Origin: Thraustochytrium sp. TN22
Taxonomy: Eukaryota; Sar; Bigyra; Thraustochytrida; Thraustochytriidae
DNA: 36,583 nt
Assembly: GCA_013306675.1 (NCBI GenBank)
Contig: JABLUY010000309.1
Coordinates: 1 to 36,583, forward strand
Reading direction: 5' to 3'
The translations under genes were made by a program, and so were the position numbers. How positions within the stretch are numbered: the first letter of the stretch is position 1; each line of letters starts with the position of its first letter. Shown here piece after piece: positions 1-36,583 of the stretch. Under the pieces are notes generated by a model, which was not told where the DNA came from, ran no database searches, and worked only from the letters and a program-made list of their open reading frames with translations.

Positions 1-40
1 CGCCGCGCCGCGCCGCGCCGCGCCGCGCCGCGCCGCGCCG
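1..40. repeat. CGCCG pentanucleotide microsatellite at left edge
   Basis: Eight perfect tandem copies of CGCCG open the window and grade into CCGCA/CCGCC imperfect repeats up to about 62. The same motif family closes the window on the right. Both edges may therefore be assembly break points rather than biological boundaries. Confidence 0.9.
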
Positions 41-62
41 CCGCACCGCACCGCCGCCGCCT

Positions 63-589
63 CCCTTGCTCTGACCTACTGACGCTGCCGGGCTGCTTGA
101 TTCGGGTCTGGCTGGAGCCGCGCGCCGCCGCCCAACCGCCGCGCGCCTGGGAAAAATCGGCGAGGGCCCCCCAGCTGCGCTGCGCCACTGGGCAGGGTAC
201 CCGGCCCATGCTGAGGTGGACCCCCGAGCTGCGTCGCCCCCACAAAGCCATGGCAAAAATCGGCGGCGCTCCGCCGGCGCTCCTGGGCGGAGTCTGCCCG
301 CGGCGACGGCGGCGGCGGCGGCGTGCGGTGGGGCGGAGGGCGAGAGCGCGGCGGGGCGGCGGCGAGGGCCGCACGCGCGGCCGACGCTGAGGGCGTGCAC
401 AACAGAGTCAAGGCGGCTAACGTCAACTTGCTATCAGGGTCAGGGAGTCAGACTGCCTTGCTGGCGGGTGCGTGGGTGGGGTGAGCTCTCCTGCCTCGCC
501 AGCGCGCTGCGCACGGCCGCAAACGCGTTCATGTCCGCGCTCACGGTCCGCGTCGTGCTCACGTCCACAGTCATGAAGCTTGGAGCCTG
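63..589. other. GC-rich spacer without a recognisable gene
   Basis: This stretch lies downstream of the decarboxylase gene. It has open frames on both strands, but they are Arg/Pro/Ala-rich low-complexity translations of GC-rich DNA and none resembles a protein family. A short motif, AAAAATCGGCG, occurs at about 153 and again at about 254 in similar surroundings. It could be a remnant duplication or a promoter element of a gene beyond the left edge. I see nothing else here. Confidence 0.5.
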
Positions 590-1990: not shown

Positions 1991-2958
1991 GTTGCTCTTG
2001 CTCTGCCACTCACTCCGTCGCTGCGCCCTGCTGCTCTCCTGGCGACGCTGTGCACCCCTGTCTGCCCGCGCGCGACCCGGACCTGCTCGCCCGCGCACGG
2101 CTGAGCGAGGGCAGTGGGCTTTCGTGTTCTGGCTGCGCCGCGCCGCCGAGCGCCTCTGCGCCGCGCGGTGCGGACTCGGAGCCGACCAGCAGCGGCGACG
2201 TTCCGGCGCCGTACGCCGCACGCTGCGCCAAGTCGTACGCGGCACGGCGCGCAGGACAGAGCCTGGGCAGAGAGAGCAATAAAAATGACAATCGCCTGGT
2301 GCTAACGCCTGACTTGTGTCGCACTGGCACTTTGGCGCTCGGGACTCGGACTCAGCCCGGACTCGGACCGTGACTCGACATTCGAAAGGCTTGGTCATGC
2401 GAGACCTTGAAGTTGACAGCGTTGACGCCGCCGTTGACGGCATCACGCCGTTGATGGACGACTCGGATGTGCCCGAATGAGTCGGCACTTTGCAAGGGCA
2501 ATGCGCGCCTCGCTACTCCAAGCAGTGGACGATGCTTTCTCTGGTGACAGGGCTCCAGGCAGGCCTCGCGCCTGCATGACATGACGCCTACCATCCAACT
2601 TGAACCCACCTCCGACATAAGTTTCTTTCATGGCCAGGCCTTCGCAGGCCACGAAGGGTGCGCGGCGGCGCCGGCGCCGGACGCCGCCGGTTTTCGTCAC
2701 GGTGGTACCAGTCCAGTAGCCAGGCCATGATAGGCCGTGATAGTACCCTGGTACACACCGTCAACGGCCATACTCCCAGTGGAGTCTGCGTTTTCTACTA
2801 CTACTTACTCTTACGCGTCGTCTTGTCACTGCCTGGCGCTCAGCTCGCTACCTTGGGCGCAGCTCGCTGCCTTGCGCACAAGAGCCGTGCGTACTACGAG
2901 CAGGTCGTAGGGGTCGCAGTCTCGAGGCACCGACGCCGCGGTGGTCGCGGCGGAGGCG
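1991..2958. other. Divergent intergenic region between decarboxylase and CFAP57
   Basis: About 970 bp separate two divergent starts and should hold both promoters. An AT-rich island (AATAAAAATGAC, near 2279) stands out in the GC-rich background, but its distance to either start makes a core-promoter role uncertain. A short plus-strand ATG frame (2397-2480, 27 codons, acidic) could be an upstream ORF. A GTACCCTGGTAC palindrome lies near 2744. No gene is recognised. Confidence 0.5.
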
Positions 2959-15449: not shown

Positions 15450-16034
15450 CTACTCCTCGTCACCCCCGCCAATGGGCACCTTGGCGCGGCGGAGCTGAGC
15501 CATGCGCTTGCGGGTCAGCAGGGGCTCCTCCTTGGCCTCCTTCTCGACCGAGTCGGGCTTGACGGCGGCGATAAGCTCAACGTGGCACGGGTTGCGCATG
15601 TAGGGGCCGATGCGGCCGTGCGCGCGGAAAGTCCGCCGGCGCATCTTGATGGCGAGGTTGACCTGCACGTGGCGGATGTACAGGTTGTCAATGTCGAGGC
15701 CCTTGCTCTCGGCGTTGGCGCGGAGGTTGGCGAGCAGGTCGAGCATGAACTTGACCGACTTGACGGGCCAGCCGACCTGGTCACCCGGGGCGTTCACGAG
15801 CTTGGCCTGGGCGTGGCGGCCGCAGCCGGCACGGTGCTGCTTGAACGGGATGGCGCGCTGGCGGTCGAGCACGAGCTCGAGGTAGGTCACGGCCTCGTCC
15901 ACCTTCTTGCCGCGAATAAAGCGACCCACGTTCATCATCTTCTTGAAGTGGGTGCGCAGCTGCGAGGCGCGCGCCTTGCACGAGGTGGAGGGATCATACT
16001 TCTCCTCCGCCGAGTACGTGCTGTTGCGGCCCAT
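15450..16034 (-). CDS. RPL17: 60S ribosomal protein L17 (uL22)
   Basis: A 194-residue protein of the large cytosolic ribosomal subunit. Features of eukaryotic uL22 are the start with SCKARASQLRTHFK, the RFIRGKKVDEA segment, CGRHAQAK, the conserved loop KMRRRTFRAHGRIGPYM, and a basic C-terminal tail ending in GGGDEE. Length fits the family (about 184 in animals). uL22 contacts 25S rRNA and its loop lines the exit tunnel. The gene has no intron here. It is divergent from the SCAMP/cNMP protein with 367 bp between the starts. Confidence 0.95.
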   Translation of the reverse strand: MGRNSTYSAEEKYDPSTSCKARASQLRTHFKKMMNVGRFIRGKKVDEAVTYLELVLDRQRAIPFKQHRAGCGRHAQAKLVNAPGDQVGWPVKSVKFMLDLLANLRANAESKGLDIDNLYIRHVQVNLAIKMRRRTFRAHGRIGPYMRNPCHVELIAAVKPDSVEKEAKEEPLLTRKRMAQLRRAKVPIGGGDEE

Positions 16035-16401
16035 CTTCCCTCGGGGCGACGGCGCTCTTGTCCTGCGTCACGGTCACGTCATCATCACGTCACTGTCAGT
16101 CTCCTGCCTCTTTCCCAGCCTCGTTCTCGCCCTGGCCATCTCTCCCGCCGCCACCAGCAGCGCGCAGCCGCAGCAGCAGCCGCCGCAGCCGCTGCAGCGA
16201 CCCCTGCGCCACCACCCGCGCCGCGCCCTGTGGCGCGCCCCGCGTGCGCATCGCATCCCTCGTCCCGCCTGGCCCGCGCGGCTCGCGCGGCTCGGCGCGA
16301 GGCATCACGGGGCGGGCCGGGTCGCGTGCGGCGGCGAGTCTCTCGCTGCGCGCGCGGCGCGCAGGAGGCGCGGGGGGCCGCGGGCGCGCGGCGAGGGCGC
16401 C
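16035..16401. promoter_or_regulatory. Divergent promoter region of RPL17 and the SCAMP/cNMP protein
   Basis: The 367 bp between two divergent start codons must contain both promoters. A repeat of GTCACG/ATCACGTCACTG appears near 16070-16096 next to the RPL17 end. The rest is GC-rich with CAGCAGC and CGCGC runs. No TATA box is visible. The reading frame of the downstream gene stays open through this stretch, but the encoded sequence is Arg/Pro/Ala-rich and has no domain. Confidence 0.5.
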
Positions 16402-19400
16402 ATGGGCGGGCGGCACTCGCGGTACTCGGGCACCTTCCGGCAGCGGCCGAGCAGGCACGCGTGGAGCCGCATCCAGGATGTGAACTACGTGGAGGAGGAT
16501 GAGGACGACAGCGACAACGAGCGCCACCAGTGGGACATGGACCGACGCGTGATGGACGAGACGTCCGATTGGCCGCGCATGTGCCCCGTGCTGCACCTCA
16601 ACATCCAGAAGGACTTCCCCCTGGAGAAGCAACGAGGGCTGGTGCGCGCCATGTATCGGTTCTGGCAGTTCAGCTTCGTGGCGCTCCTGGTGAACTTCGT
16701 GGCGACCATGGCCACGCTGCTGACGTCCAACGTGACGAACCCGGGAACCATGACGCAGAGCTTCGTGATCGCCATCGTGTACCTCTTCGGCGAGTTCTTC
16801 CTGGTCTTCCGGCCGGCGTACTGGGCGCTCCGGCTCGAGTCCAACATCCTCTTCGTGTGGACCTACATCATGTTCGTGGCGCTCTTCGCGCTCTTCGGCT
16901 TCATGCTCTCGCAGGCGCTGGGCCTGGTCAGCGTGCTGGCGGAGCCGCTGGCTCCCGGCAGCAACCTGCCCGTCAAGATCAACCCCATCTTCCCGGTGAC
17001 GCTCTTCAGCATCTTCGCGGCGCTCTCCCTCTTCAACATCATCTGGATCTTCTACTTCTTCAGCCAGATGTTCAAGTTCCACACCATGAGCGACCAGAAG
17101 AAGCTCGAGCTCTACAAGAAGCAGAAGCGCTCGCCCTGGCTCTCGCGCTGGTTCGGCGGTGGCGACGGCGATCTCTTCGGCGATGACACCGACGCCGACG
17201 GCAAGCCCAAGAATGTGTGGCCGTGCACGCTTCACTACGAGCAGGTCGACCGCGAAATTCTCAGCGACGACGAGGACGACGGCGCCAAGGGCAAGAAGAA
17301 TAACAAGAAGAAGGCCTCGCGCTCGCGCAAGAAGCCACGCGGACACAAGATGGAGCGCAAGCTGCTGACCATCCCGGGCCAGCTCGCACTTTTCCCCACT
17401 GACCGCAAGGTCGTCTTCAAGTCGGATGAGGCCATCTTCAACAACGTCTTCAAAGTCACCGTGATGCTCGTCAACATCAGTGCACTCAAGAAGGAGGGCG
17501 ACCTCATCCTCAACGTCGTGGAGCTGCTCTCGGACGAGGCCTTTGAGGAGGACCTCAACGAGTACCGCACCGTACAGGCGCGCTGCTCCTCCGACGTCAA
17601 GACGCTGCGCAACATCCACGTCGACTTCGACCTCAAGCAGAGCCGCGACGAGTGTTACAAGAAGGTCAGCGCCGTCTGGCGCGCCGTCAAGAAGAAGGAG
17701 CAGGTCTACATGGCAATGGACGAGGAGAACCTGCGCGAGATGCGCCTGCGCTCCAGCCGCCGCGCCCGTGAGCGCGCCTCGCAGCACCTGCTCACGCACG
17801 CGGACTGGAAGCTCATCGTCAGCCTGGTCTCCCGGGCCCACTTCAAGGCCGGCATGGACATGCTCAGCAAGGGCACGCACCTGCAGCACCTCTTCCACAT
17901 CACCGAGGGCACGGTGACCATCTACCTCGACACCGCCTCGTACGGCGCTGTGGGCAGTGGGGCTGCCTCCCGCGTCGGGGGCTCCCAAGTGGAGGATGAT
18001 GACTTCGACCTGCAGGCTGCACTCTTCCCCGAGGCGGATCAGGAAAACCTCCTCGACAGCCTGCGCGACACCGAAAAGGTGAATCGCAAGAAGGCGGCCG
18101 CCGCGCAGTCGGCCGCGGATCTCAGAGAGCCAGCCTCCATCCCGCGCTACTACTCGGTCACCTTCAACAACCGCAAGCTCGGCTTCTCCTACGTCAAGCG
18201 GAAACGTTCGTATAACCTCGGCGACTTTGAGGACCTCAGCGGCAAGCACTACCAGACTGTGACCAACAAGCACCGCTTCAAAGACAACTACGCCGCCGTC
18301 GTGCACCACGTCAAGGACGGTAGCGACGCCGCCAAGGCCGAGGTGCGCGTCGGCGACGAGGTCGTCAAAGTTGGCCTCCTCAATATCGAGGAGGCTGAGT
18401 TCACCCAACAAGGCATCACCACCTTCATCAAGGAGAACCGCTACCCGCTCGACATCACCTTTCGCCGCCCGCCCGAGTTGGATCTGCAAGTCGACGAGGC
18501 CGGCTTTGTGGCGCCCGACCCAAACCTTGTCCCGGCGCAGGTGCGCCAGGCCATGCGCGAGCAGGACCAGATCGAGGAAGACTACGGCATGCTGCCCACC
18601 GTCTTTCTGGCGCCCATCCAGCCGGGCTCCGTCTCCAGTCCGGGCTACTCGGCGCGCAGCGTGCGGGGCGCCAGCGGGGCGCTTGCGCCCATTGGCTCCT
18701 CGGCCGCGTCAATGCGCACTGACGAGAACCGCTCCGTGCGCCGCCCGAGCTACTCGGCCGTCCCATTTGGCACCGCCTACGATACCAGCGACGAGGAGGA
18801 AGAGGAGGAGGACCTTGATGACCACGGCGACGACACGGGCGACCTCATCTCCTTTGACGAGGACCCCTACATCCGCCCCAAGCAGCCCGACTTGGCCGAC
18901 GGCTTGCCGCAGGATGACCAGACTTACTCTTCTCGTCAGGGCGGCGGCCGCAACGCGGGCCGCGGCGGCGGCGGCGGCGGCGGCGGCATCGGCAACGCCA
19001 ACGCCAACAATGGCAACGATGGCAGCAACGGCGCGAACCCGGCGGCCGGCCCTCGTGGCGGCCTCTTTGAGATGTCGCGGCTGGACCTGGCCGAGGCGTA
19101 CGCGGCCAAGCAGGACGACTTCAATGCCGGCGAGGTGACGGAGTTCCAGGCCTCGGCGCCCCTCCTTGATGCGGAACCGCGGCGGCTCTCGGACCTGAAC
19201 GCCTACACCGAGGCGCAGCTGCGTCGCGCCGGCCGGCTGCCGCCGCCGCCGCCCGAGGAGGATGAGGACATGGTGGGCGTCTCGCACCCGCAGAGTGGAC
19301 TGCTGGCGCGCGGCCGCGCCTTTCTCTTCGGGCACCCGGTCACCTACGACAAGCTGGAGGAGAACCGGCTGCGCGAGCAGCTGGCCGGCGATGACGGCGC

Positions 19401-21069
19401 GGACGCCGACACCATCTCCATCATCGTGGGCGACGCCGAGTCAGACCTGGGTCCGGCAGGCCGCTCCGGCAGGATCGCGCCGGCCCACAGCCTGACGGAC
19501 GACGAAGACGAGGACGGTGAGGGCGGCGACGACCTCTTCCGATCCGTGCCGGCCTTCGAGCCGGTCGGACACTTTGACAAGGGCGACACGTACGGAATCA
19601 TCCCATGGATCCTCAATCACCCGGTCTCGGTCGTGCATCTCAAGGCCAAGACCGACGTAACGGTTCACATGATCAACGTGGACGAGCTGTCGCGCGTCTT
19701 CCGGCGCAACCCCACGCTGGCGCTGTCCTTCTTCAAGTACGTGGCGGCCGCCATAGGCGAGCGCGCTGACCGCGACGAGGAGGTCCTCTGCGATCAGATT
19801 TCTGACGACCTCGTCAAGCGCGACGCCAAGGTCGCCAGCAACAGCCAGCTCACGCGCAAGCTGGACAACAAGCCCATCCGCTCTACGGTATCCACGAGCT
19901 TTGAGAAGCGCGCGCAACTCTCGGACCAGGCGCGCCACTGGTTCCAGCAGGACTTTGACATGGAGTACGACTCCGTCATGTTCGACAAGCCCTGTAAGGC
20001 GCGCATCGTCGGCGACCGCAACGTGCAGCGCGGCAACGACTGGCACGGCTCCAGCACGGAGGCGGCCACTGCCGTCATGGAGCCTGGTCTCCTTTTTATG
20101 ACGCACTTCCACGTCTGCTTCCGCTCCAGCAAGCGCTCGCTGGACCTCGGCAGCCTGCGCCGCCGCCCGCGCCTCTATGGCAAGCTTCACATCGACGATG
20201 TCTTCGACATTAGACGCGAGGGCGACAATGGCGAGAGCATCTCCATCATCACTGACGACGTGCGCCTCGACGTGCAGTTCGACGAGGCTCGCGACGCGCA
20301 GCTCCTGGAAGACTGGATTAACAGTCTCATTGCCAGCAGTTCCGTCGTGGAGCAAGCGCCAAATAGCTACACCTTGCCGGGCGATGTCTACGGCATATCG
20401 TCCGGCCAGGTCAAGTCCGAGGACCTCCCGGACGGCGTGGACGCCGACCCGATCAACGTGCTTTACACGCAACAGCGCGACCTGCGCACGGAGTTCCTCA
20501 TCTTGACACAGACTTTGCAGCAGGTGCTCACCAAGCAGGACCGCTTCAAGATGTTCCACGACGGCAGCTCCGTGGTCCTACGCCGCGGCCAGAGCGTGCT
20601 CACGGCCGCCAAGCAGGCCGCGCACCGCCCAACGTCCGAGTCTGACGATGCCTACAGGCGCCGCCCCCAGACCTCGCGAAAGGCCATGCTTGCCGACGGC
20701 CCCAACGGCCTCTACCTGGTCGGCAGCGGCGAGCTCGTGCTGCAGCGTGAGGTCAACGGCCGCCGCATTCAATTCGCCACGTACAAGGTCGGCACCGTCT
20801 TTGGCGTCGAGCGCTTCCTTACCGACGCGCCCTCGCCCTTCACGGTCAAAGTCGTCTCCAAGACCGCCCTGCTCAAGTTCGCGCCGCGCGACCGCTGCAT
20901 GGCGCTTATGCGCTCCGACCTCGCGCTCGCCTCGCGCTTCTATCAGTATTGCGCGCTCCTGCAGATGCAGCGCCTGCGCGGCCCCATCATGAGCAAGCCC
21001 ATCGACCTTGCCGAGGACGGCCCCATCGTCAAGACCGACGGCGGCCGCCGCGGCTGCTCCATTCTCTAA
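16402..21069 (+). CDS. SCAMP-like tetraspan protein with cNMP-binding, PDZ and GRAM domains
   Basis: A 1555-residue protein. Residues ~55-235 resemble SCAMP: an amphipathic KDFPLEKQRGLVRAMY segment, then four hydrophobic helices including FRPAYWALR. A basic linker and a possible PH/GRAM-like region (~325-450) follow. A cNMP-binding-like fold seems split: its first half is at ~465-515 (HITEGTVTIYLD) and its second half at ~1057-1125. Between them lie a PDZ-like domain (~583-690, with KLGFSYVKR and VRVGDEVVKV) and long acidic/Gly-rich linkers. A GRAM/PH-like domain is at ~1177-1314, and a last cNMP-binding-like domain at ~1370-1520. The protein ends in CSIL, a CaaX box predicting geranylgeranylation, and starts MGGRHS, which fits N-myristoylation. 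The role is unknown; a membrane signalling scaffold in trafficking is inferred. Canonical cAMP-binding residues are not evident. Confidence 0.75.
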   Translation: MGGRHSRYSGTFRQRPSRHAWSRIQDVNYVEEDEDDSDNERHQWDMDRRVMDETSDWPRMCPVLHLNIQKDFPLEKQRGLVRAMYRFWQFSFVALLVNFVATMATLLTSNVTNPGTMTQSFVIAIVYLFGEFFLVFRPAYWALRLESNILFVWTYIMFVALFALFGFMLSQALGLVSVLAEPLAPGSNLPVKINPIFPVTLFSIFAALSLFNIIWIFYFFSQMFKFHTMSDQKKLELYKKQKRSPWLSRWFGGGDGDLFGDDTDADGKPKNVWPCTLHYEQVDREILSDDEDDGAKGKKNNKKKASRSRKKPRGHKMERKLLTIPGQLALFPTDRKVVFKSDEAIFNNVFKVTVMLVNISALKKEGDLILNVVELLSDEAFEEDLNEYRTVQARCSSDVKTLRNIHVDFDLKQSRDECYKKVSAVWRAVKKKEQVYMAMDEENLREMRLRSSRRARERASQHLLTHADWKLIVSLVSRAHFKAGMDMLSKGTHLQHLFHITEGTVTIYLDTASYGAVGSGAASRVGGSQVEDDDFDLQAALFPEADQENLLDSLRDTEKVNRKKAAAAQSAADLREPASIPRYYSVTFNNRKLGFSYVKRKRSYNLGDFEDLSGKHYQTVTNKHRFKDNYAAVVHHVKDGSDAAKAEVRVGDEVVKVGLLNIEEAEFTQQGITTFIKENRYPLDITFRRPPELDLQVDEAGFVAPDPNLVPAQVRQAMREQDQIEEDYGMLPTVFLAPIQPGSVSSPGYSARSVRGASGALAPIGSSAASMRTDENRSVRRPSYSAVPFGTAYDTSDEEEEEEDLDDHGDDTGDLISFDEDPYIRPKQPDLADGLPQDDQTYSSRQGGGRNAGRGGGGGGGGIGNANANNGNDGSNGANPAAGPRGGLFEMSRLDLAEAYAAKQDDFNAGEVTEFQASAPLLDAEPRRLSDLNAYTEAQLRRAGRLPPPPPEEDEDMVGVSHPQSGLLARGRAFLFGHPVTYDKLEENRLREQLAGDDGADADTISIIVGDAESDLGPAGRSGRIAPAHSLTDDEDEDGEGGDDLFRSVPAFEPVGHFDKGDTYGIIPWILNHPVSVVHLKAKTDVTVHMINVDELSRVFRRNPTLALSFFKYVAAAIGERADRDEEVLCDQISDDLVKRDAKVASNSQLTRKLDNKPIRSTVSTSFEKRAQLSDQARHWFQQDFDMEYDSVMFDKPCKARIVGDRNVQRGNDWHGSSTEAATAVMEPGLLFMTHFHVCFRSSKRSLDLGSLRRRPRLYGKLHIDDVFDIRREGDNGESISIITDDVRLDVQFDEARDAQLLEDWINSLIASSSVVEQAPNSYTLPGDVYGISSGQVKSEDLPDGVDADPINVLYTQQRDLRTEFLILTQTLQQVLTKQDRFKMFHDGSSVVLRRGQSVLTAAKQAAHRPTSESDDAYRRRPQTSRKAMLADGPNGLYLVGSGELVLQREVNGRRIQFATYKVGTVFGVERFLTDAPSPFTVKVVSKTALLKFAPRDRCMALMRSDLALASRFYQYCALLQMQRLRGPIMSKPIDLAEDGPIVKTDGGRRGCSIL

Positions 21070-21841: not shown

Positions 21842-24800
21842 ATGCTGGTCGGCGACGGCGCCTCCGGCAAGACTCTGGCGACGAACTTGCGGGCAGCCAA
21901 AGAGGCGGCGGACGAGCCGGCGATCGCTTCCACGGACGGCGCCAGCGAGACGGACTCCAGCAGCGACCTCGCGGAGACGCTGGCGGCGCTGAGCCAGGAG
22001 GAAGCGCTCAGCACCTTCGGCAAGGGCACCATGGGGCCACGCCGGAAGAGCACGCGGCACTCGATGTCGAGCGCCGCTGCTGCAGACATGACGCCAGCGG
22101 CCGCGGACGAGTCGATGTCTACCAGCGCAGCGACGTCGAGGACCGGGAAGCACACCAGGCTCGCCAGTGGCGGCGCGGCCGCTCCTGGTGGAAAGGCCTC
22201 GAATGCGTGCAGCTGGTGTAGGTCCACCACGCACAAGCGCAGGAGCTCTCTCAAGTGTCCGTTCAATAAGGCAAGGCTGGAGGGCGGCGACGTCGTCGTC
22301 GTCGGCGTCGGCGGCGGCAACCATGATGGGAACATCGACGAGGACATTGAGCAAGAGGCAAGGGCGGAGGACGGCTCCGAGGATGGCGTCGAGGAGGACG
22401 CCGACGAGGCAGCGTCAATCGAGTACCAATGGACCCCGCTGCCGCCGCCAAGACACATCGAACTGGCATGGGAGGAGGATGTCCGATCCACCGTGGCGCG
22501 TGGACGTGGCAAGGCGCAGGTAAAGTACATCTACGACAAGCTTCGGGACGCGGCGTCGAGCATCGGCCACCAGTCGCCCAAGCTAGAGATCCTGGTGGTC
22601 TTCCGACTGATCGCAGGTAAGCTAGTCGACCAGATGTATACGTCGGCGAGCATCAACCTTGCGCGCCGCGGCTTGCCGGCTCTGGCACCTCACGAGTTCT
22701 GGGTCTTTCTGGCGAGCTTTCTGTTTTACCACTTGACCGGGATGCGCTTGGAGCGCTGCCTGCGGTACATGCGGGCGCACGGGCTCATGTACTACGGGCC
22801 GACCTTCCAGTCTCTGAGCAAAGAGCGGTTCTCCGCCATCCTTGCGGCCATTACCATCGCGGACCTGCGCAGCGAGGGCACCGCAGCGCAGCTCTTCGGT
22901 GACGATCTGGCCTTTTTCGAGATTCTCGCTTTTGAGGCGACGCGGACTTTCACGCTCGGCCCGGACTCAAGCGTGAGAGTGGACTCGAACCTGCTCAAGA
23001 CGGAGGTCGTCAGCTCAGATGAGGGCGTCAGGGCCGAGCTCCAGCACCTCGCGGCGGTCGACTCCGTCCTGCACATGACCTATGCGGTCCGCCACCAGCG
23101 CAAGGGGGGCTGGACGCAGGATCGCCTTCTTCGAGAAGTCATGGGCGACCTGCGCAACTTCCCGCAGAATGAACTGGGCTGCATGGTGGCCCTGGGCAAG
23201 GAGTACCGCAAGACTGACATTGTGGCCTCGCTTCTGAGCAGTGGCTGCAGTTTCTGCAAGGCCGTGGACGGAGCCGAGAGCCCGTGGGTCGCCGAGAGCA
23301 GTCTGTCCAAGGAGGAGGCCAAGGACGCGGGCGACAGGAACGACGTCATCGCGGACGACCCTCGCCTGGGTGAGGCGGTCTTCACGATGATGCGCACGGC
23401 CGGCGGTGGCGCAAGTGCGGCCGACGTGGCGTCGCCTCCTTCAGCGACGCCCTTCGCCTATGCCTTTCGCTCGCGCGGGCGCGAGCGCGAGCGCGCCGAC
23501 CTGCATCGCTTCCTCGAGTGCAACACGGGCCACTCTGCCATGATGCGGAGCACGCTCGTCATGGTCCCCAGGGCGGTGGAGCCGGGGAGAGCGTCCTTGA
23601 CACTCTATCTCAAGAGCCCGGACGGCGTCAAGGCCGATGGCGTTGCGGAGGTCGAGGCGGAGCTCAGCAAGAAGTGCATCCCGTTGACGTGCTCCCGGGA
23701 CAGTGAGGACTGGCACGTCTTGCGGCGCTTCTCTGTCACCGCCAGCCTTGGTCGGGCGCTCGCGCCGCGCGACTTTGGCATGCGCGCCCTCGTGTACCAG
23801 GAGGATGACGCCGCGGCCATGCAGACCGCCGAGCTGAGCGAGGAGGCCATCGCGTCGAAGGCTGCGCGCACCTGGGTGCCGGACGGGCCTTCGTTGCCAG
23901 ACGCGGAGACGGGCTCGGACGCCGTGCGCGTGCTCTGGAATGCGCGGCCAGAGTGGTGCGTGGATGCCTTCGAGTGCGGTCTCTTCGAGCATCAGAACGT
24001 GGCCGGGCTCTCAGCAACGCCGGACGCCATCGTCCGCATTCACAAGCCAGGGGACGGCGAGTGGGAGGCAGCGCCCATTGTGTGCAGCGCCGACGTTCAG
24101 AGCGCTGACATGCTGCCGTCCGAGGTGCGAACTGCCGCGAAGGAGCTCGCGAGGACCAAGGGCAGCAACTTTTTTGCATGCACGATCGGCGACGAGATTT
24201 GGTGGAAGTTCATCACCCCTGAGCACCGGGCGCGGTTGATTCACAATGCAGTCGTGCTCAACGCCGAGTACGTCCTCTACGTGGTAGGTACCTCCGTGGA
24301 GGTCGACTTTAGCTGCCTGGTCAGCGTGCCCTTCGCCGCACGTCTCGTTTACCAAGGCGCTCTCCAGCAGTGGGTCAGGAAACTCACGTCCTGGGCGTAC
24401 GAGAACCTCGCCAAGGACGAGGCGCCTTGCGAGCCGCCGGAGATCTTCAGCGCCCGCGACAGGGAAGTCTTCTCCAGCCATTTCGCTCTGTGGCGGGCGG
24501 TGCGCACGCGTGTGGCTAACCTAGGGCCTCTCCGCCCTGTGGATCGCTTCACGTGCGTTCCGGCTATGGTCAGCGAGGACTTTGCGCTCTCCGGGGAGGC
24601 TTCCGTGGACGAGACGAGTTGCTTTGTGGCGCCCCCGCTCAAGGCGGATGGTATGAAGCTGACGCCGGACCAGACGTTTGCTTTGCGCATCTTCCGTGAG
24701 GTCGTCATCAACGCTTCCATCCTGCACCGCGCGCAGGGCGCTCAAAGCAAGGGCGCCGTGGACACTCTGCTACAGGAGATGGGCGACGCTGCGATGAGGG

Positions 24801-25525
24801 CGGCTGCCATTACTGAAATCATGCACGAGATCATTCCAGCCATGTTCCAGCACAGCGCGGCCTTGGCGCGCTCGCAGGCCGCGGCCACGCCGGGCGCTGA
24901 AGGTCTGCGCTCACCCTCGGCGCGTGCTAGCCTGCCCGCGTCACCCGCATCGGGCAATTCTTCTCCTGGGCAACCGACTCAGCAGGAGCAGCGACAGCTT
25001 GACGACGGAAGCAAGCGATCTCGCGAAGAATACGAAAAGGAGACGGCGAGCGAGGTGGCGACTTCCGCTGCCCTTGTGGCGGCAAGTGAGAGTGATAGCC
25101 TCGACGCCTTGGCGATGCACGTGCGCGGCGCACGCCCGGCAAGGACTTCTGACATTAGGCAGTTCTTCAACGGTGAGAAGCCGTCGCGGCTCCGCCTCAG
25201 CACCGAGATCGCGCACGAGACGATCGACTTGACTGACAGCGCAGATCTCAAGATCGGTGCCACCATTCAAGGCGGAACGCCCTACAGGGTGACCAGGACT
25301 TCGCTCTGCGTGGTGTGCGGCGGCAGGGCCGGACGGATGTGCTCCACGTGCGGCGTGCCTTTGCACACTATTCGGACCAAGACCGCCGGGGAAACTTGCT
25401 TTCACCTCTTCCACAACCAAGACGTGCTGGAAGCCATCGTGGACGTCAAGGATGACATTCCGGCCAAGAAGCGCCGGGCCTCTCTGCGCAGGAGTCTCCG
25501 CTCCGCCACGCCGAGCAAGTCATAG
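21842..25525 (+). CDS. PiggyBac-type transposase-like protein with YqaJ-like nuclease domain
   Basis: A 1227-residue protein, best read as transposon-derived. An acidic/Ser N-terminus is followed by a zinc-knuckle-like motif C123-x2-C126-x4-H131-x7-C139-P. Residues ~229-480 resemble the piggyBac DDE_Tnp_1_7 domain (HEFWVFLASFLFYHLTGM at 284; RFSAILAAITI; later ALGKEYRKTDIVASLLSSG). The usual second Asp of the D(R/N)xY motif is G452, and the first region reads VDS at D381. Residues ~620-830 resemble the YqaJ/lambda exonuclease fold: W624xxxRRFSVTAS, then SATPD728AIV, then D751-x-Q753 where ExK is standard. A Ser-rich linker (1010-1060) leads to a C-terminal Cys/His cluster (C1156-x2-C1159-x7-C1167-x2-C1170 ... 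CFHLFH at 1186) like the piggyBac CRD. It is uninterrupted by stops. Activity, mobile or domesticated, is unknown. An in-frame stop at 21776 precedes the start. Confidence 0.65.
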   Translation: MLVGDGASGKTLATNLRAAKEAADEPAIASTDGASETDSSSDLAETLAALSQEEALSTFGKGTMGPRRKSTRHSMSSAAAADMTPAAADESMSTSAATSRTGKHTRLASGGAAAPGGKASNACSWCRSTTHKRRSSLKCPFNKARLEGGDVVVVGVGGGNHDGNIDEDIEQEARAEDGSEDGVEEDADEAASIEYQWTPLPPPRHIELAWEEDVRSTVARGRGKAQVKYIYDKLRDAASSIGHQSPKLEILVVFRLIAGKLVDQMYTSASINLARRGLPALAPHEFWVFLASFLFYHLTGMRLERCLRYMRAHGLMYYGPTFQSLSKERFSAILAAITIADLRSEGTAAQLFGDDLAFFEILAFEATRTFTLGPDSSVRVDSNLLKTEVVSSDEGVRAELQHLAAVDSVLHMTYAVRHQRKGGWTQDRLLREVMGDLRNFPQNELGCMVALGKEYRKTDIVASLLSSGCSFCKAVDGAESPWVAESSLSKEEAKDAGDRNDVIADDPRLGEAVFTMMRTAGGGASAADVASPPSATPFAYAFRSRGRERERADLHRFLECNTGHSAMMRSTLVMVPRAVEPGRASLTLYLKSPDGVKADGVAEVEAELSKKCIPLTCSRDSEDWHVLRRFSVTASLGRALAPRDFGMRALVYQEDDAAAMQTAELSEEAIASKAARTWVPDGPSLPDAETGSDAVRVLWNARPEWCVDAFECGLFEHQNVAGLSATPDAIVRIHKPGDGEWEAAPIVCSADVQSADMLPSEVRTAAKELARTKGSNFFACTIGDEIWWKFITPEHRARLIHNAVVLNAEYVLYVVGTSVEVDFSCLVSVPFAARLVYQGALQQWVRKLTSWAYENLAKDEAPCEPPEIFSARDREVFSSHFALWRAVRTRVANLGPLRPVDRFTCVPAMVSEDFALSGEASVDETSCFVAPPLKADGMKLTPDQTFALRIFREVVINASILHRAQGAQSKGAVDTLLQEMGDAAMRAAAITEIMHEIIPAMFQHSAALARSQAAATPGAEGLRSPSARASLPASPASGNSSPGQPTQQEQRQLDDGSKRSREEYEKETASEVATSAALVAASESDSLDALAMHVRGARPARTSDIRQFFNGEKPSRLRLSTEIAHETIDLTDSADLKIGATIQGGTPYRVTRTSLCVVCGGRAGRMCSTCGVPLHTIRTKTAGETCFHLFHNQDVLEAIVDVKDDIPAKKRRASLRRSLRSATPSKS

Positions 25526-25774: not shown

Positions 25775-28078
25775 TCAGAAGAAGATTGCGAGGAGCGCGA
25801 GGCCCCCGACGACAAGCAAAAAGAGGATGACCTCAAGCAAAGGATTGAGCCAGGCCGCCTTGCGAGGCCGCTCGGACTCTTCGTGCGATTCTGATGGCTC
25901 AGAAAAGGAGGAAAAGTAGAGCGGAATGTATGTGCCCGTGCGGTGGTTGCTGGTGTTGTTGAGATGCTCGTTCTCGAGCCGTACGAGCCCCCACATGGTA
26001 CGGCGCGCGACCTCGGCAAAGACGAGCGAGGTGGTGGAGAAAATCCAGGTGTTGCCGATGGACTTGGCCGGAAGCAGCGTGCCAGTCCACAGGAGACGCA
26101 TAAAGAAGTCGAGAACAATGAAGATATAGTACGGCGCGCGGCTGCCGCGGAAGACCGGATCGAGCAACATGAGTCGCTTCCGCAAGAGGCCGTGGGAGCA
26201 CCTGCCAAAGCCCCAGTCCATGCCAACATCCCAGGTAAAGGTGAAGAGCGAGGTGAGCGCGAAGACCGTGATGAAGGCAGTGTGCCACGAGGCCGGGACG
26301 TCCGCATGCATGTCGAGGAGGTTCGGGCGCATGGCGGAGAAGATGACAACGGTGTGAGAGAAGCCGTACTTCATGGCATTGAGCAAGTAGGGCCAGTTCT
26401 TGCCGGTCACGTAGAGCCGGCTGAGATTCTGGCCGAGTCGCAGCCAAAGCGGCCAGCAGGTGACGATCGGCACGATGACTCGGCCCATGACGAAGCTCTG
26501 CCCGCACACGCTGACGTCTTGCGTGAGGTCGCGCGCGAAGGCTCTTGGGCCGGCGACACTGAAGCTACAGGTGATAAAGGCAATGTCAACGAGAATCTTG
26601 GTGGAGCTCGTGAGGTAGTCTGCAATAAAGGCCACGAGAAAGCCGCTCTCGGAGAGGCCAAACACAAAGACGAAGGCCGCATAGAGCGCCCCGGTGGTCG
26701 CCCTGCGTAGGCCCCGGCGCCGCACCCGCGGCAAAAACACCTTGCGCAGGAACCAGGCGACGAAGACGACCAGGTAGAGCAGCAGTAGCACGAGCGGAAA
26801 GACGCCGGCCGAGGCTGCACGCTCATTGTTGTGCAGCTCCTTGATGAAGATGATGAGGTTGAAGAAGTAGCAAATGGTGGCAAGCGCGGCCCAGCGGAAG
26901 AGGTCGCGCGTGCTGGGGAAGGCCCGTGAGGAGACCGAGAAGATGACCGGGAAATTGATGCGGCTCTCGCGCCAGGCCGCGATCTGGAGGACGCCGCCCC
27001 AGTAAAAGAGTAGGATGGCGCCTAGCGCGCGGTAGATGCGAAGGCCGTCGCTGTTGTGGAAGATCACGTTCTCAGCGTCCTGGTCGACAACCACCACCGA
27101 AAAGGCCCAGCACGCCAGACCGAGCGCCATGCCGCACCAGGCACCGACGCCGACGAGCCCCCAGTCAGGCATCTGCCCGCGCTTCTCGAGCATGGTGTAG
27201 GAGGCGACCTTGACGTTGCCGCCGTAGAGCTCCTCCGCGCAGACCTCGACGATGCGCGGCATGAGCTTCTGCAGGCCCTGCGCATTGGCGAAGTCGCTCT
27301 TTTCCAGCACCTCCTTGCGCAGAAACAGGCCGAGCGGCTTGCCGTGGAGGTAAGCGCCGGCCACGCCCGGCATCTGCAGGACGGCGGATAGTGTGCTGTA
27401 GTTGCGCACCGCGTACGACGAGAGGTAGTGCGCGAGGCGGTACACCTCCGTGAACTCCGGCCCGAAGGTTTCCCTGCGCCTGCCGAGGGTGGATTGCTCG
27501 GTCTCCTTGGGGTTCTTTCGCGCCTCCTGCTCGGCCTTTTGGCAGTTCTCGCGCGCCTCCTCGAGGCGCTTCTCGACCACGTCGACCTCCTCCCTGAGCG
27601 CTTTCGTCACCTTGGCCACCTCCTTGTCGAAGCGCATGACGAAGCGGCCAATGTCGGACTTCTCCAGCATGTGGGAGCCCTCCTTGACGTCCTCCGCCGT
27701 TGCGCCGTAGTTCGCCTCCGCCTCATCCTCTCCTAGCTCCTCGCCCGAGCTCAGGCTCGACAGCCTGCGTCTCAGCAGGCTCCAGCGCTCCGCGTCCCGG
27801 CCCAGGTCCACGGACTCCTCGTCGCTGTCCTCCCGCTCGACGCAGCACGCCCAGCGCCGCAGGCGTCGCGCCGCCTCGCTCACGCGGTCCACCAGCGCCT
27901 CGCCGTGCCCGCCCAGCCCCAGCTCGTCCGCGTCGCCGTTCAGCGCCTGCCGCTGCAGCTGCAGCGCCAGCTTCTCCAGCTCGTCCACGTCCGCGTCCTT
28001 GCCCTCCAGGCTCGGGTACCCCTTCACCGACGTCACCGCCAGCGCCAGCGACAGGTCCGTCAGGCTCCCGTCCTCCAT
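25775..28078 (-). CDS. EXS-domain (XPR1/PHO1-like) membrane protein with degenerate SPX region
   Basis: A 767-residue protein. The C-terminal ~450 residues contain many hydrophobic helices and the EXS signature TFTWDVGMDWGF (~640), as in XPR1, PHO1 and yeast Erd1/Syg1. These are phosphate exporters or Golgi phosphate/glycan-sorting proteins. N-terminally, residues ~140-240 have a helical region (RFDKEVAKVTKALREEV and LSSYAVRNYSTLSAVLQ) that aligns in order with the middle and last helices of SPX domains. The canonical MKF start and the Lys-rich KxxKxxK surface that binds inositol pyrophosphates are not visible. Phosphate export is therefore plausible but control by InsPs is doubtful. The extreme C-terminus ends in another hydrophobic helix (LLEVILFLLVVGGLALLAIFF, split: ~746-766), so the protein may be tail-anchored at that end. 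It is divergent from the Cys-rich secreted protein. Confidence 0.8.
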   Translation of the reverse strand: MEDGSLTDLSLALAVTSVKGYPSLEGKDADVDELEKLALQLQRQALNGDADELGLGGHGEALVDRVSEAARRLRRWACCVEREDSDEESVDLGRDAERWSLLRRRLSSLSSGEELGEDEAEANYGATAEDVKEGSHMLEKSDIGRFVMRFDKEVAKVTKALREEVDVVEKRLEEARENCQKAEQEARKNPKETEQSTLGRRRETFGPEFTEVYRLAHYLSSYAVRNYSTLSAVLQMPGVAGAYLHGKPLGLFLRKEVLEKSDFANAQGLQKLMPRIVEVCAEELYGGNVKVASYTMLEKRGQMPDWGLVGVGAWCGMALGLACWAFSVVVVDQDAENVIFHNSDGLRIYRALGAILLFYWGGVLQIAAWRESRINFPVIFSVSSRAFPSTRDLFRWAALATICYFFNLIIFIKELHNNERAASAGVFPLVLLLLYLVVFVAWFLRKVFLPRVRRRGLRRATTGALYAAFVFVFGLSESGFLVAFIADYLTSSTKILVDIAFITCSFSVAGPRAFARDLTQDVSVCGQSFVMGRVIVPIVTCWPLWLRLGQNLSRLYVTGKNWPYLLNAMKYGFSHTVVIFSAMRPNLLDMHADVPASWHTAFITVFALTSLFTFTWDVGMDWGFGRCSHGLLRKRLMLLDPVFRGSRAPYYIFIVLDFFMRLLWTGTLLPAKSIGNTWIFSTTSLVFAEVARRTMWGLVRLENEHLNNTSNHRTGTYIPLYFSSFSEPSESHEESERPRKAAWLNPLLEVILFLLVVGGLALLAIFF

Positions 28079-32680: not shown

Positions 32681-35600
32681 TCAGGGCAGGTTGAAGGAGG
32701 TCATGCAGGCCTCATAGTTGAGGCCCTCGTCATCGAAGCGCGGGCAAGGCGTGTTGGTGTAGTTCTGAGGGCCAGAACGCTGGAAGAAGATGCACTGGAG
32801 CTCATTGTCTGGCAGCATGGCGCGCGTGGCGTCACAGTCCAGGGCGGAGAGCTGCAGCTGGCACGTGTTGGTGCGCGGCTGAAAGGCTACGCCCGTGCAG
32901 ACCTCGTTTTTGCGGCAGCGGTCCAGGCAGACAGCGAGCGAGCAGCCCGTTCCACTGTCGTCGCTGCACACGGTGAGCGTCTCGGAAGAGCCGGACGCCA
33001 CGCAGGGGCCCATGAGCACCTGCTGGAAACAACCGGCGTCGGTGCGGTCGGGCTCATCCGGGTACATGTCCGCGTCCATATTGATGCAGCGCGGCGGTGT
33101 GGACTGGCGGTAGTTGGCGTTGGCAGGACAGTCGAGCCGCGAGGAGGTGAGCGAGCTGTCGCCAGCGTCCACGGCGTAGCAGCCATTGCGCATCGCAACA
33201 GTGTACGAAGTGGGCGCCGTGGTGCGCGCGCAATCAATCTCATGGTACGTGAGGCGGCACGAGTGCTCGCGATGACCATACTCAAAGCCAGTACAGGCGT
33301 TTGTTGACATGCAAGCGGCCGCACAGTAGTTCCACGAGCAGCCCTTCATCGGCGCGTCCTCCTCGCGATCGCAAAGAAGCTCCGTGTCGCGGTCGACGCC
33401 AGACGCGGAGCGGCAGCGGTTGAACGCCACGAGTGAAACACAGGCCTTGTCTCCGCGCGTTGGCGCGGGCGTCGGCTCTTCTTCAAGGCACTCGATCGAC
33501 ACGGGTTCGCTGCTGAGCGCCGGAACCCCGGTGTCAACGACGCAGCCACCCAGAGTCCATTCGATGCCCGAGCACCTGAAGTTGACCCAGCCCGAGCGGA
33601 CGTAGTTGATCGGGGCGGAGCGCGAACCTGAGACCAGGCCACGATTGTAGCCCGAATCCAGCGAGCGGCACGCTACGGTAGCTGCGTCATCGTCAAAGGT
33701 CCCGTCCTGCATGACGACGACCCAGACGCCGAGCGTGGAATTCCAGACCTCGATGTAGCCCGGGTTTCCGAAGAGTCGCGCGTCATCCGAAGCGGCCGTC
33801 GGACGAATCGAAATAATTGTCGGGCTCCCGGTGGTGGGTGGGGCCGTCGTTGGCCGCGGGGTGGGCTGCTGCGTGGGTGGCGCCGTGGTTGGTTGTGCAG
33901 TCGGCTGCTGCGTGGGCGGCGCCGTGGTCGGCGCTGCAGTCGGCCGCCGCGTAGGAGCACGAGAGGGCGCTGTCGTGGGCCGCAATGTGGGGGTCGCGGT
34001 GGTCGGGGCCGGGCTCGGCGAAGGCGTCTCGCCGGGCACGGTTGGCGCCCGCGTGACGGGTGCCCGTGTGGGCGCCCGCGAAGTCGGCGCTCGCGTTGGG
34101 GGGGTTGCCGGCGCGGCCGACGGCAGGACGCCCCCGCAGAGGACCTTGGCTGCAGCTTCGCAGGTGTTTCCTGCGTCGACAAAGGTGCAATCGAGGAGCT
34201 GCGTCGCGTCGGACCCGCAAATGACCGTGTGAAGCGAGACCTGCATCGGGCTTGGGGTCACGTCGGCCTTGGGCGCCGGGGCGCCATCATCGAAGCCCAG
34301 CGTGCGGCACGCGAGCGCGGCGACGTCGTCATCCAGCGTGTCACCGCACACTTGTCGCCACGTCTGGCCCTGGTCGAAGCTAAACTCGAGCAGCCCGGGG
34401 TTGCCGTTAATGAGCCGCAGCGAGCGGGACGCCGTCACGGCGATGACCTGGACGCCGTCCGTGGACCCGTCCGTGGATCCATCGCCCCCAGCGCCGTCGT
34501 CGCCGTCCCCGCCGCCGCCGCCGCCAGCCACCACGACGCCGACCACGACGCCAATCACGACCAGCAGCAAGAGCAGGCACAGCACGCAGAGGTTGCGCTT
34601 GCGGGCATACCACGGGGGCGGGGGTTTGTCCGCGCCGTCCTTGCCGCTCACCACTGCGGTAGGCGAAGCTGCAGGATTTGCGCCGGCCAGAGCGGGCCCC
34701 GCCGCCGGCCCGTCTTGCAGCAGGCCGCCATCATAGTTGCCGTCCTCGCCATTCTCGTCGTCCATGTTGAGGACCACGTCCGCCTCCTTGGCGAAGCTCC
34801 TAGCGGCAGGCACCGGGACGTTTGCCGGCGCCGGCGCCGGCGCCGGGACAGACGTGGCGGTGGTGGCACTAGCGCCGGTGCTGTAGGGCGAATCGAAGTC
34901 GGAGGGTTTCAGGCTCGAGGGCGTGGCCGGCGCAGGCAGCACGGCAGCGCCAGAAAAGGCAGCGCCAGAGAAGGCGGCACCGGCGGCGGGAGCGGCGCGC
35001 GGCGGAAGCGTGGGTGGCGCGCGCGAGGGCAGCGGCCACGTCTCGGTGTCGAGCGCCTCGCGGAGCTGCGAGGCGGAGGGCCGCTGGCTGCGATCCATGG
35101 TCCAGCAGGCCTCGATAAGGTCCATCATCCAGCGCGTGTAGGTGGGCTCGCGCAGCTCCAGGAGCTCGCCGTTTCGTACAGCGAGGAAGATGGCGCCGAG
35201 TGTACAGCCTTCCCAGGGCGGGCGGCGCTCGAACATCTCCCAGATGACAACGCCAAAGGCGAAGATGTCGGTACGGAACGAGAGGCGCGCGGGCGTGGCG
35301 AGCTGCTCGGGCGCCAAATACTGCGGCGTGCCAGCCGGCGTGGCGTCCATGGTGGTGCGCGACTGCGCCATCTTGGAGCTGATGCCGAAGTCGCAGAGCT
35401 TGACCTGGTCAAGGCGGCGCGAGAGCAAGACATTGCGCGGCTTGAGGTCGCGGTGGATGATGAGGCGGCGGTGCAGGTACTCGAGGCCGCAGGCAATGTC
35501 GGCGCCGATGCGGCGCACCTGCGCAAACGGCAGGTCGTAGGCCGCCTTGTCGTAGATGACGTCGTGCAGCGAGAGCTCAGAGCGCTCCATGACGCAGTAG

Positions 35601-36526
35601 ACGCCGCCGGGCGCCTCGGCGATGCCGAGCAGGCCCAGCAAATTGGGGTGCTGGATGGAGCGCCAGATCTTGAGCTCGTCGATGGCGTCGGCGAGCGCCT
35701 GCGTGTCGGTGGCGGCGCCGGCAGCGCGGTTGCCCGCGAGCTCCACGGACGCGATGCGCTTGACGGCGGCCGGCCGCCCGCGGAAGGTGGCTTCGTGGAC
35801 GTCGCCGAAGCCGCCCTTGTTGATGAGTCCGCCCACCTGCAGTTCCTCGCTCTTCACGTCCACCTCGCCGCTCTTGGCAGACTGCAGCATGGCGGCCACG
35901 AGCTCGCGCACGGCGGCCGGGCCGCCGCCGCCGGCCTGCGCCGCGGCGGCCTCCAGCAAGCCGCGGTCCACAGCGACGTGGCGCTGCAGCAGGCCGGCGT
36001 CCATGGCCAGCGCACCGCGGCTGGCGCTCGCCACGGACTCGTCCAGCTCGCGCGCCGCGGTCCGCTCGTCCGGGACATTGCCCTGCACACGCAGGAGGTC
36101 GCGCAGACCGGCGTCGTCTTGCAGTCCCAGGCTGTACACGGCCGTGGTGAGCTCGCTCTGCAGCTGCTGCAGGTGCTTGCGCAGCGACTCGCCCACGGTT
36201 TTCGCCGCCACGGCCCTGTGCAGCGCCTGCACCTGCGCCGGCGGCTGTGTGGCTCCTGCCGCTGCCCTGGACAGGTCGTCCACGCGCCGCACGCACACCA
36301 GCGCCTCCGTCAGCTCGCTCAGCGCGGCGTCCAGCGCCACGGCCCACCGTTCTCCTCGCGCTGCCGCGCCCGCGCCGCCGCCGCGCGCCGCTGCCGCGCC
36401 GGCCGCGCTCTCGGCCGCGGCGCCCAGCGCGCCCAGCGCCGCGCCCAGCGCGCCCCCGACCGCGCCCAGCTCGTCCGCCGCCGCCGCCGCCTCGCGCGCC
36501 AGCGCCGCCGCGCCCGCGCCCTCCAT
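32681..36526 (-). CDS. Inverted receptor kinase: TKL kinase, TM, SRCR and PAN domains
   Basis: A 1281-residue protein without a signal peptide. Residues ~1-220 are Ala-rich helices. A TKL-type Ser/Thr kinase spans ~230-495: glycine loop NKGGFGDV, K256 in AAVKR, HRD D360 in HRDLKPRNVLL, DFG D379, GTPQYLAPEQ and TDIFAFGVVIWEM, so all catalytic residues are present. After a Pro/Ala linker, one TM helix (~645-668) follows an RKR cluster. Then come an SRCR-like domain (~690-796), a Thr/Pro-rich mucin-like stalk with TTAPPTQQPT repeats (~799-905), a second SRCR-like domain (~907-1014), and two PAN/apple-like Cys-rich repeats (~1025-1130 and ~1180-1265). Basic residues before the TM and no signal peptide suggest N-terminus inside (type II): kinase in the cytosol, adhesive domains outside. 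Ligands are unknown; carbohydrate or protein binding is inferred from SRCR and PAN. Confidence 0.82.
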   Translation of the reverse strand: MEGAGAAALAREAAAAADELGAVGGALGAALGALGAAAESAAGAAAARGGGAGAAARGERWAVALDAALSELTEALVCVRRVDDLSRAAAGATQPPAQVQALHRAVAAKTVGESLRKHLQQLQSELTTAVYSLGLQDDAGLRDLLRVQGNVPDERTAARELDESVASASRGALAMDAGLLQRHVAVDRGLLEAAAAQAGGGGPAAVRELVAAMLQSAKSGEVDVKSEELQVGGLINKGGFGDVHEATFRGRPAAVKRIASVELAGNRAAGAATDTQALADAIDELKIWRSIQHPNLLGLLGIAEAPGGVYCVMERSELSLHDVIYDKAAYDLPFAQVRRIGADIACGLEYLHRRLIIHRDLKPRNVLLSRRLDQVKLCDFGISSKMAQSRTTMDATPAGTPQYLAPEQLATPARLSFRTDIFAFGVVIWEMFERRPPWEGCTLGAIFLAVRNGELLELREPTYTRWMMDLIEACWTMDRSQRPSASQLREALDTETWPLPSRAPPTLPPRAAPAAGAAFSGAAFSGAAVLPAPATPSSLKPSDFDSPYSTGASATTATSVPAPAPAPANVPVPAARSFAKEADVVLNMDDENGEDGNYDGGLLQDGPAAGPALAGANPAASPTAVVSGKDGADKPPPPWYARKRNLCVLCLLLLLVVIGVVVGVVVAGGGGGGDGDDGAGGDGSTDGSTDGVQVIAVTASRSLRLINGNPGLLEFSFDQGQTWRQVCGDTLDDDVAALACRTLGFDDGAPAPKADVTPSPMQVSLHTVICGSDATQLLDCTFVDAGNTCEAAAKVLCGGVLPSAAPATPPTRAPTSRAPTRAPVTRAPTVPGETPSPSPAPTTATPTLRPTTAPSRAPTRRPTAAPTTAPPTQQPTAQPTTAPPTQQPTPRPTTAPPTTGSPTIISIRPTAASDDARLFGNPGYIEVWNSTLGVWVVVMQDGTFDDDAATVACRSLDSGYNRGLVSGSRSAPINYVRSGWVNFRCSGIEWTLGGCVVDTGVPALSSEPVSIECLEEEPTPAPTRGDKACVSLVAFNRCRSASGVDRDTELLCDREEDAPMKGCSWNYCAAACMSTNACTGFEYGHREHSCRLTYHEIDCARTTAPTSYTVAMRNGCYAVDAGDSSLTSSRLDCPANANYRQSTPPRCINMDADMYPDEPDRTDAGCFQQVLMGPCVASGSSETLTVCSDDSGTGCSLAVCLDRCRKNEVCTGVAFQPRTNTCQLQLSALDCDATRAMLPDNELQCIFFQRSGPQNYTNTPCPRFDDEGLNYEACMTSFNLP
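33810..34130 (-). repeat. Coding repeat: TTAPPTQQP mucin-like stalk
   Basis: Within the kinase gene, tandem codon repeats encode APT(S/T)RAPT and TTAPPTQQPT(A/P) units, a likely O-glycosylated spacer separating the two SRCR-like domains. Confidence 0.8.
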
Positions 36527-36530
36527 CGCG

Positions 36531-36583
36531 CCTCGCCTCGCCTCGCCTCGCCTCGCCTCGCCTCGCCGCGCCGCGCCGCGCCG
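36531..36583. repeat. CCTCG/CCGCG pentanucleotide repeat at right edge
   Basis: Seven copies of CCTCG followed by three of CCGCG and a partial unit, up to the end of the window. It starts 4 bp upstream of the kinase ATG and so would lie in its 5' UTR. It mirrors the CGCCG repeat at the left edge. Confidence 0.9.

Follow-up and report, generated by a model that had tools for sequence, protein, structure and literature searches.

A piggyBac-like transposase gene with an in-line YqaJ-type nuclease in Thraustochytrium sp. TN22, and its relatives in the same genome

According to the relevant passages of PMC7351741, the piggyBac transposase has a catalytic triad (D268/D346/D447) and a C-terminal Cys-rich domain (CRD). 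Precedents for a transposon that carries a nuclease of the type considered here are KolobokE and ISL2EU. In KolobokE, a DDE transposase is followed downstream by a PD-(D/E)xK nuclease resembling lambda exonuclease, and Kolobok elements have 4-bp duplications, TTAA targets, 5'-RR ends, and a C/DxxH motif (passages of PMC9587614). ISL2EU elements of the PHIS superfamily encode the YqaJ nuclease in a separate open reading frame (ORF), possess a THAP domain, and make a 2-bp AT duplication within A|AT|T (passages of PMC4482050). Here we describe P0001, a gene in a window of 36,583 nucleotides that is one entire contig (JABLUY010000309.1, ~65% GC) of the eukaryotic Thraustochytrium sp. TN22 genome (37.9 Mb, 453 contigs). 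We read P0001 as immobile, catalytically degraded, and probably domesticated; its ancestors would belong to a transposase family in which one polypeptide unites a piggyBac-like DDD transposase, an inserted YqaJ nuclease of the lambda-exonuclease type, and a piggyBac-like C-terminal zinc domain. We put the probability of this reading at roughly two in three (0.68).

Domain order and coding character of P0001

The domains of P0001 follow the order zinc knuckle, piggyBac-like DDE region, YqaJ-type PD-(D/E)xK nuclease, and piggyBac-like CRD. These names would not be supportable from P0001 alone and are supported through sequence relatives in its own genome, among them L031 and the multi-copy L032. 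The features are as follows.

21842..25525, + strand: ORF P0001, 1,227 amino acids, single-copy member of the piggyBac-like/YqaJ family
22208..22258, + strand: N-terminal zinc knuckle C123/C126/H131/C139, residues verified
22409..23521, + strand: DDE-like region of RNase H transposase type, residues 190-560, with homology to L031 and L032, which are intact
22982..22984, + strand: D381, catalytic D1 position by alignment, kept (VDSN; IDDE in relatives)
23195..23197, + strand: G452 at the catalytic D2 position by alignment (ADRGY in L031 and L032)
23471..23473, + strand: S544 at the candidate D3 position by alignment (D561 in L031, D560 in L032), D3 being tentative
23699..24271, + strand: YqaJ-type PD-(D/E)xK nuclease region, residues 620-810, by hhalign via the family profile
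24023..24025, + strand: D728, nuclease Asp by alignment, kept
24092..24100, + strand: D751-x-Q753 where L031 and L032 have ExK, by alignment
25307..25414, + strand: C-terminal CRD of piggyBac type, CxxC...CxxCxxPLH...CFxxFH (piggyBat 9c0f is the top PDB match of the family profile, E 0.023, not significant alone)

The initial annotation of this DNA had proposed such a protein in one unbroken frame. The frame is confirmed at 1,227 codons, every residue it named (C123, C126, H131, C139, G452, W624, D728, D751, Q753, and C1156) was verified, and the co-occurrence of a DDE-type region, a YqaJ-like block, and a piggyBac-like CRD is supported through the relatives. Its view that Gly replaces the second Asp and DxQ replaces ExK also holds, as L031 and L032 carry Asp and ExK at these positions. 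A CGSTxH...CPL motif similar to the zinc knuckle is found in L031 and L032 and is absent from L035. Joining of two genes by misassembly was rejected, because the same DDE-nuclease-CRD order is observed within single frames at the independent loci L031 and L035 on other contigs.

P0001 begins with ATG and continues for 1,227 codons without a stop, where ~31 stops would be expected from base composition; the other two forward frames across it contain 24 and 30 stops. Its GC content at third codon positions (GC3) is 0.81, compared with 0.585 for flanking intergenic DNA and 0.845-0.897 in four neighbouring frames. Given the open frame and host-like GC3, P0001 looks like real coding sequence. At the DNA level it is single-copy, the genome matches besides itself covering just 33 to 72 bases. 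An inverted-repeat scan (the 25 longest of 149 pairs) yielded no N-TA-N or CC-ended candidate termini, and L032-type ends have two weak matches near P0001 against 1.7 expected by chance. A search for a duplication combined with an inverted-repeat pair recovered the L032 ends and likewise gave no N-TA-N or CC-ended candidate for P0001. Neither a 4-bp target duplication nor 5'-CCC ends were found for P0001 in these searches.

Relatives, catalytic residues, and the mobile L032 element

A protein search of the same genome identified L031 (contig C239, 1,213 codons), L034 (C11), L035 (C151, 1,227 amino acids), a multi-copy group at four places (C394, C81, C109, and C33; L003-L006, L032, and L033), as well as a shorter form in numerous copies. 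With L031 and L035 as queries, L050 (C322), L051 (C111), and one partial L031-like copy were added. P0001 shares 29-30% identity with L031 and with L032; for L035, L050, and L051 the value is 21-22%. In the tree of seven proteins (P0001, L031, L032, L034, L035, L050, and L051), L031 groups with L032 (83/91) and L035 with L050 (99/99), and P0001 has no resolved placement. End branches measure 0.52 for L032, 0.72 for L031, 0.97 for L035, 1.22 for P0001, 1.58 for L050, 2.02 for L034, and 2.4 for L051. Thus, the fusion of nuclease and transposase recognized in the initial annotation is upheld, but not as a one-off event: the unit is a family with paralogues. Scans of viral-contig and genome-contig collections, neither of which includes eukaryotic genomes, with two short peptide patterns gave no relatives beyond this genome.

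The catalytic residues were tabulated for six aligned lineages (the seven tree members with L034 left out). Both sites are intact in two of the six and altered in the other four. L031 (D402/D480/D561) and L032 (D392/D470/D560), in which the third Asp is a candidate, both keep the nuclease D, E, and K. In P0001, D381 is followed by Gly and Ser at the next two positions, and the nuclease D is kept while E is changed to D and K to Q; the alignment thus suggests that D2 and the nuclease Glu and Lys have been lost, and probably D3 as well. L035 keeps D1 and D2 and lacks D3 as well as the nuclease E. Both sites are also changed in L050 and L051, although the DDE part of these two aligns unsurely. 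In L034, SPAA is seen by eye at the nuclease Asp.

Two of the other loci have a structure of their own. The L034 locus (positions 1-6711, - strand) contains a 3,580-amino-acid open frame that includes a degraded member of the family along with repeats resembling the CRD and repeats resembling AP2, the AP2 reading being weak (Pfam AP2 E 0.22). L053 (1625-3163) is an internally deleted copy of an L031-like element with DNA identity of 92% in the 3' part and 80% in the 5' part. Because of this deleted copy, L031 may also stem from a once mobile lineage. The comparison with L053 suggests a right end ...GGTGGG for L031, for which no matching duplication was found.

The L032 element is 4,127 bp long between its flanking tetranucleotides and has the ends CCCAATC...GATTGGG. 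Its four full copies (L032, L033, L005, and L006) differ at 1 to 35 of the 4,127 bases. The same ends are found on an internally deleted form of 2,337 bp, which is represented by at least 46 near-identical full-length copies, at least 40 of which score equal to the query (40 scored of 108 candidates). Among 28 places with a both-ended element, 21 are distinct by their flanks, places with identical flanks being treated as one; L015, L021, and L025, which lie on three contigs, are thus a single place, and L012, L026, and L028 have no both-ended copy.

Perfect 4-bp duplications flank 17 of the 21 distinct insertions (13 ATAT, two ATAA, one CTAT, and one ATAG). The four imperfect ones are TTAT/ATAT twice, ATAT/CTAT, and ATAT/ATAG. 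TA is central in each of the 42 flanking tetranucleotides (N-TA-N), and TTAA is absent from the 17 perfect duplications. When flanks were re-paired at random in 5,000 trials, 11.1 perfect duplications resulted on average, and 17 were reached in 0.02% of the trials; exact flank matches of 3, 5, and 6 bp were not observed. By a 12-base check, both flanks lie outside element sequence in 14 insertions, and the duplication is perfect in 12 of them (L010 and L013 among these still adjoin other copies); for nested insertions, it is perfect in 5 of 7. A 2-bp (AT) duplication was rejected in view of the four perfect cases ATAA, ATAA, CTAT, and ATAG. The near-identical copies and clean duplications suggest that the L032-type transposon has spread very recently. 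Of the features to which the initial annotation had pointed, paralogues are present and L032 has inverted-repeat ends, whereas TTAA is not its target, the sites being ATAT-like N-TA-N.

Copies at L004, L015, L016, L023, L024, L027, and L032 lie next to, or have inserted into, the AT-rich right end of a further copy, where they occupy an ATAT or ATAG of that copy; this end is a possible hot spot of self-insertion. At L032 (4762-4771), the reading frame shifts at one place between the nuclease and the CRD. The surrounding letters are identical in all 33 sequence matches (the loci overlap, so that matches outnumber places), and thus the change is fixed. It may be a frameshift that became fixed while a different copy drove a burst, or else a programmed shift.

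Domain assignments and genomic setting

The nuclease part of four family members was compared with eight YqaJ proteins, namely L042 from the same genome and seven phage proteins drawn from 20 listed of 337 matching phage records. The hhalign match is 96.2% (P 2e-9, 166 columns) and includes the colinear YqaJ features W..R..ITgT, SPDG, and EIK. Its score of 70.2 was reached by none of 60 column-shuffled profiles (best 21.9), the reversed profile also scored lower, and two wrong-family controls gave 0.1% and 0.2%. On these profile comparisons, the YqaJ assignment is firm. Against Pfam YqaJ itself, L032 has an E-value of 0.021, below the cut-off.

The assignment of the DDE part to piggyBac appears weaker. 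L031 matches DDE_Tnp_1 with E 2.3e-4 (21.4 bits versus the cut-off of 23) and L032 with E 0.013; L035 matches DDE_Tnp_1_7 with E 0.011, below the cut-off, and P0001 has no match. Three proteins from the same genome that score above the DDE_Tnp_1_7 cut-off, and whose own profile matches piggyBat with E 2.3e-7, served as the piggyBac reference. Against these piggyBac-derived proteins, hhalign gives 21% (P 0.001) and places the first catalytic Asp in register; the score of 36.1 exceeds all 60 shuffles (best 23.0).

The CRD pattern is present in P0001, L031, L035, L050, L051, and the second L032 frame. For the CRD piece of P0001, zf-Tnp_2 is the third Pfam match (E 0.1) behind zf-HIT and Auto_anti-p27 (0.03-0.04), and the pieces of L031, L032, and L035 have no zf-Tnp_2 match in Pfam.

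Three more piggyBac-derived genes (L038, L039, and L040) score above the DDE_Tnp_1_7 cut-off and have long low-complexity extensions. No YqaJ block was noticed in them, and their acidic catalytic residues look changed. Upstream of P0001, positions 15907-21069 (+ strand) hold a single open frame with a SCAMP membrane domain and a cyclic-nucleotide-binding (cNMP) domain; downstream, an EXS-family gene occupies 25775-28078 on the opposite strand. At 32681-36583 (- strand) of the window, a single frame encodes a protein kinase domain together with SRCR repeats and also matches PAN weakly. The neighbours of P0001 are thus eukaryotic in type. No light-harvesting protein was matched in the genome, and its two dehydratase-domain (PS-DH) matches lie within open frames of 3,044 and 5,691 amino acids; giant PUFA-synthase frames being typical of thraustochytrids, this suggests a non-photosynthetic, thraustochytrid-like host.

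Alternative explanations and known systems

In the mobile relative, the DDD site of an L032-type protein would cut and join 5'-CCC ends at N-TA-N (ATAT in most cases), so that 4 bp are duplicated, as with piggyBac at TTAA, and the YqaJ nuclease might trim or resect transposon or donor ends. P0001 itself would most likely act by DNA binding, for example at transposon-end-like or host sites, because its zinc domains are kept and its catalytic residues are changed. From the single copy, the failure to find ends, the open frame, and the host-like GC3, we infer an immobile derivative kept by the host; its end branch, longer than those of the intact L032 and L031, agrees with this. The possibility of domestication raised in the initial annotation thus stands for a single-copy gene with an open frame and altered sites.

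Several observations weigh against this reading. Queried alone, P0001 retrieves nothing from Pfam (E up to 10) or from PDB. In PDB, the whole family profile has a piggyBat CRD (9c0f) as its first match (E 0.023) and a lambda-type exonuclease as its second (E 0.043), and the nuclease profile alone has a lambda-type exonuclease as its sole match (E 0.016), but E-values of 0.016-0.043 are not significant alone, because the DDE profile, which retrieves no piggyBac chain, has a plant peroxidase on top at 0.025. L032 fits the unrelated SgrT (33 residues, E 0.0016, below the cut-off) better than YqaJ, and the CRD pieces of L031 and L035 match no transposase zinc family in Pfam. Single-sequence AlphaFold models of two P0001 pieces reached pLDDT of 37 (the nuclease piece) and 39. 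The identity of D3 is tentative, and the nuclease of P0001 may still be active, as DxQ nucleases can be (BglII has ExQ). Degenerate P0001 termini would escape the pair search, which demanded that the duplication be exact and that 10 of 14 end bases match.

Finally, an old relic that kept its frame by luck may also fit P0001. According to this explanation, P0001 is the decaying remnant of a once mobile element, with no present function and a frame that is left over. The changed catalytic residues, the failure to find termini, and the long end branch (1.22) agree with it, as do the still longer end branches of the altered members L050, L034, and L051. However, the complete lack of stops and the host-like GC3 persist despite only 31% identity to the nearest relative, and L034, L035, L050, and L051 likewise keep frames of more than 1,000 codons. 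We consider a functionless relic unlikely.

Similarly doubtful is the assignment of the family to another DDE superfamily, KolobokE-like or unnamed, with a lambda-exonuclease-type module and a convergent zinc domain. The weak DDE match to piggyBac, and the scoring of L031 and L032 on DDE_Tnp_1 rather than on DDE_Tnp_1_7, are consistent with such an origin. On the other hand, the ends are 5'-CCC and not the 5'-RR of Kolobok, no C/DxxH occurs within 220-230 residues after D2 of L031 or L032, the CRD pattern is that of piggyBat, and the D1 motif IDDELVGGR resembles IDEQLLGFRG of the piggyBac chain. The replacement of the DDE site by the inserted nuclease as the cutting enzyme, suggested in the initial annotation, is very improbable: D2 is gone in P0001 while D728 and the acidic D751 remain, and DxQ sites work in some PD-(D/E)xK enzymes, but it fails because both sites persist in the intact L031 and L032, and because P0001, L035, L050, and L051, which have lost DDE residues, are altered in the nuclease site too; the single-copy P0001, with no termini found, also shows no sign of mobility.

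Our preferred explanation of P0001 can be tentatively extended to a branch at or beside piggyBac in which the in-line YqaJ is obligate, the targets are N-TA-N, and altered full-length copies (P0001, L034, L035, L050, and L051) were repeatedly kept by the host as DNA-binding proteins. Several altered relatives with intact frames may mean that transposases were domesticated more than once in this small genome. How a DDD transposase comes to process its ends or resect the donor site by itself could become visible in a protein of this kind, which carries an exonuclease-type module of its own. In the open-licence literature searched (Repbase being outside this scope), we found no account of YqaJ lying in line within a piggyBac-like transposase. 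The passages on piggyBac and YqaJ in papers naming both describe no fusion, and the matches listed for YqaJ with transposase, or for piggyBac with thraustochytrid or Aurantiochytrium, contain nothing on one. The piggyBac-like setting, the placement of YqaJ ahead of the CRD, N-TA-N as the target, and the existence of several altered paralogues are new as far as seen.

Among known systems, the piggyBac superfamily (piggyBac 6x67 and piggyBat 9c0f) shares with this family a DDE-type region with D1 in register, the CxxC/CxxC/LH/CFxxH pattern of a putative C-terminal zinc domain, and, in the case of L032, a 4-bp duplication with a TA core. The 5'-CCC ends, CCCAATC at both ends of L032-family elements, are also those of piggyBac itself. 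Unlike piggyBac, the family has an N-terminal zinc knuckle and a YqaJ nuclease inserted before the CRD, its sequences fall below the Pfam thresholds for DDE_Tnp_1_7 and zf-Tnp_2, and L032 targets ATAT, and also ATAA, CTAT, and ATAG, instead of TTAA. Domesticated piggyBac genes of the PGBD type are single-copy and transposase-derived and have no termini. P0001 resembles them in being single-copy with no termini found, and differs in having the nuclease block and in the loss of residues at both sites.

With KolobokE the family shares the combination of a DDE transposase and a lambda-exonuclease-like nuclease, and with Kolobok the 4-bp duplications, whereas the end and target features given for Kolobok in the passages of PMC9587614 were not found in L032, nor C/DxxH in L031 or L032 after D2. 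The trait shared with ISL2EU is a transposon-encoded YqaJ nuclease, and the parallel drawn in the initial annotation agrees with the passages of PMC4482050; unlike ISL2EU, L032 makes a 4-bp duplication, and L031 and L035 have YqaJ within the transposase frame. Proteins of the YqaJ/lambda exonuclease type (L042, phage proteins, and 3syy) have the order W..R..iTaS, SPDG, EIK in common with L031 and L032. In contrast to free YqaJ proteins, the module is embedded here in a transposase, and its catalytic E and K are changed in P0001.

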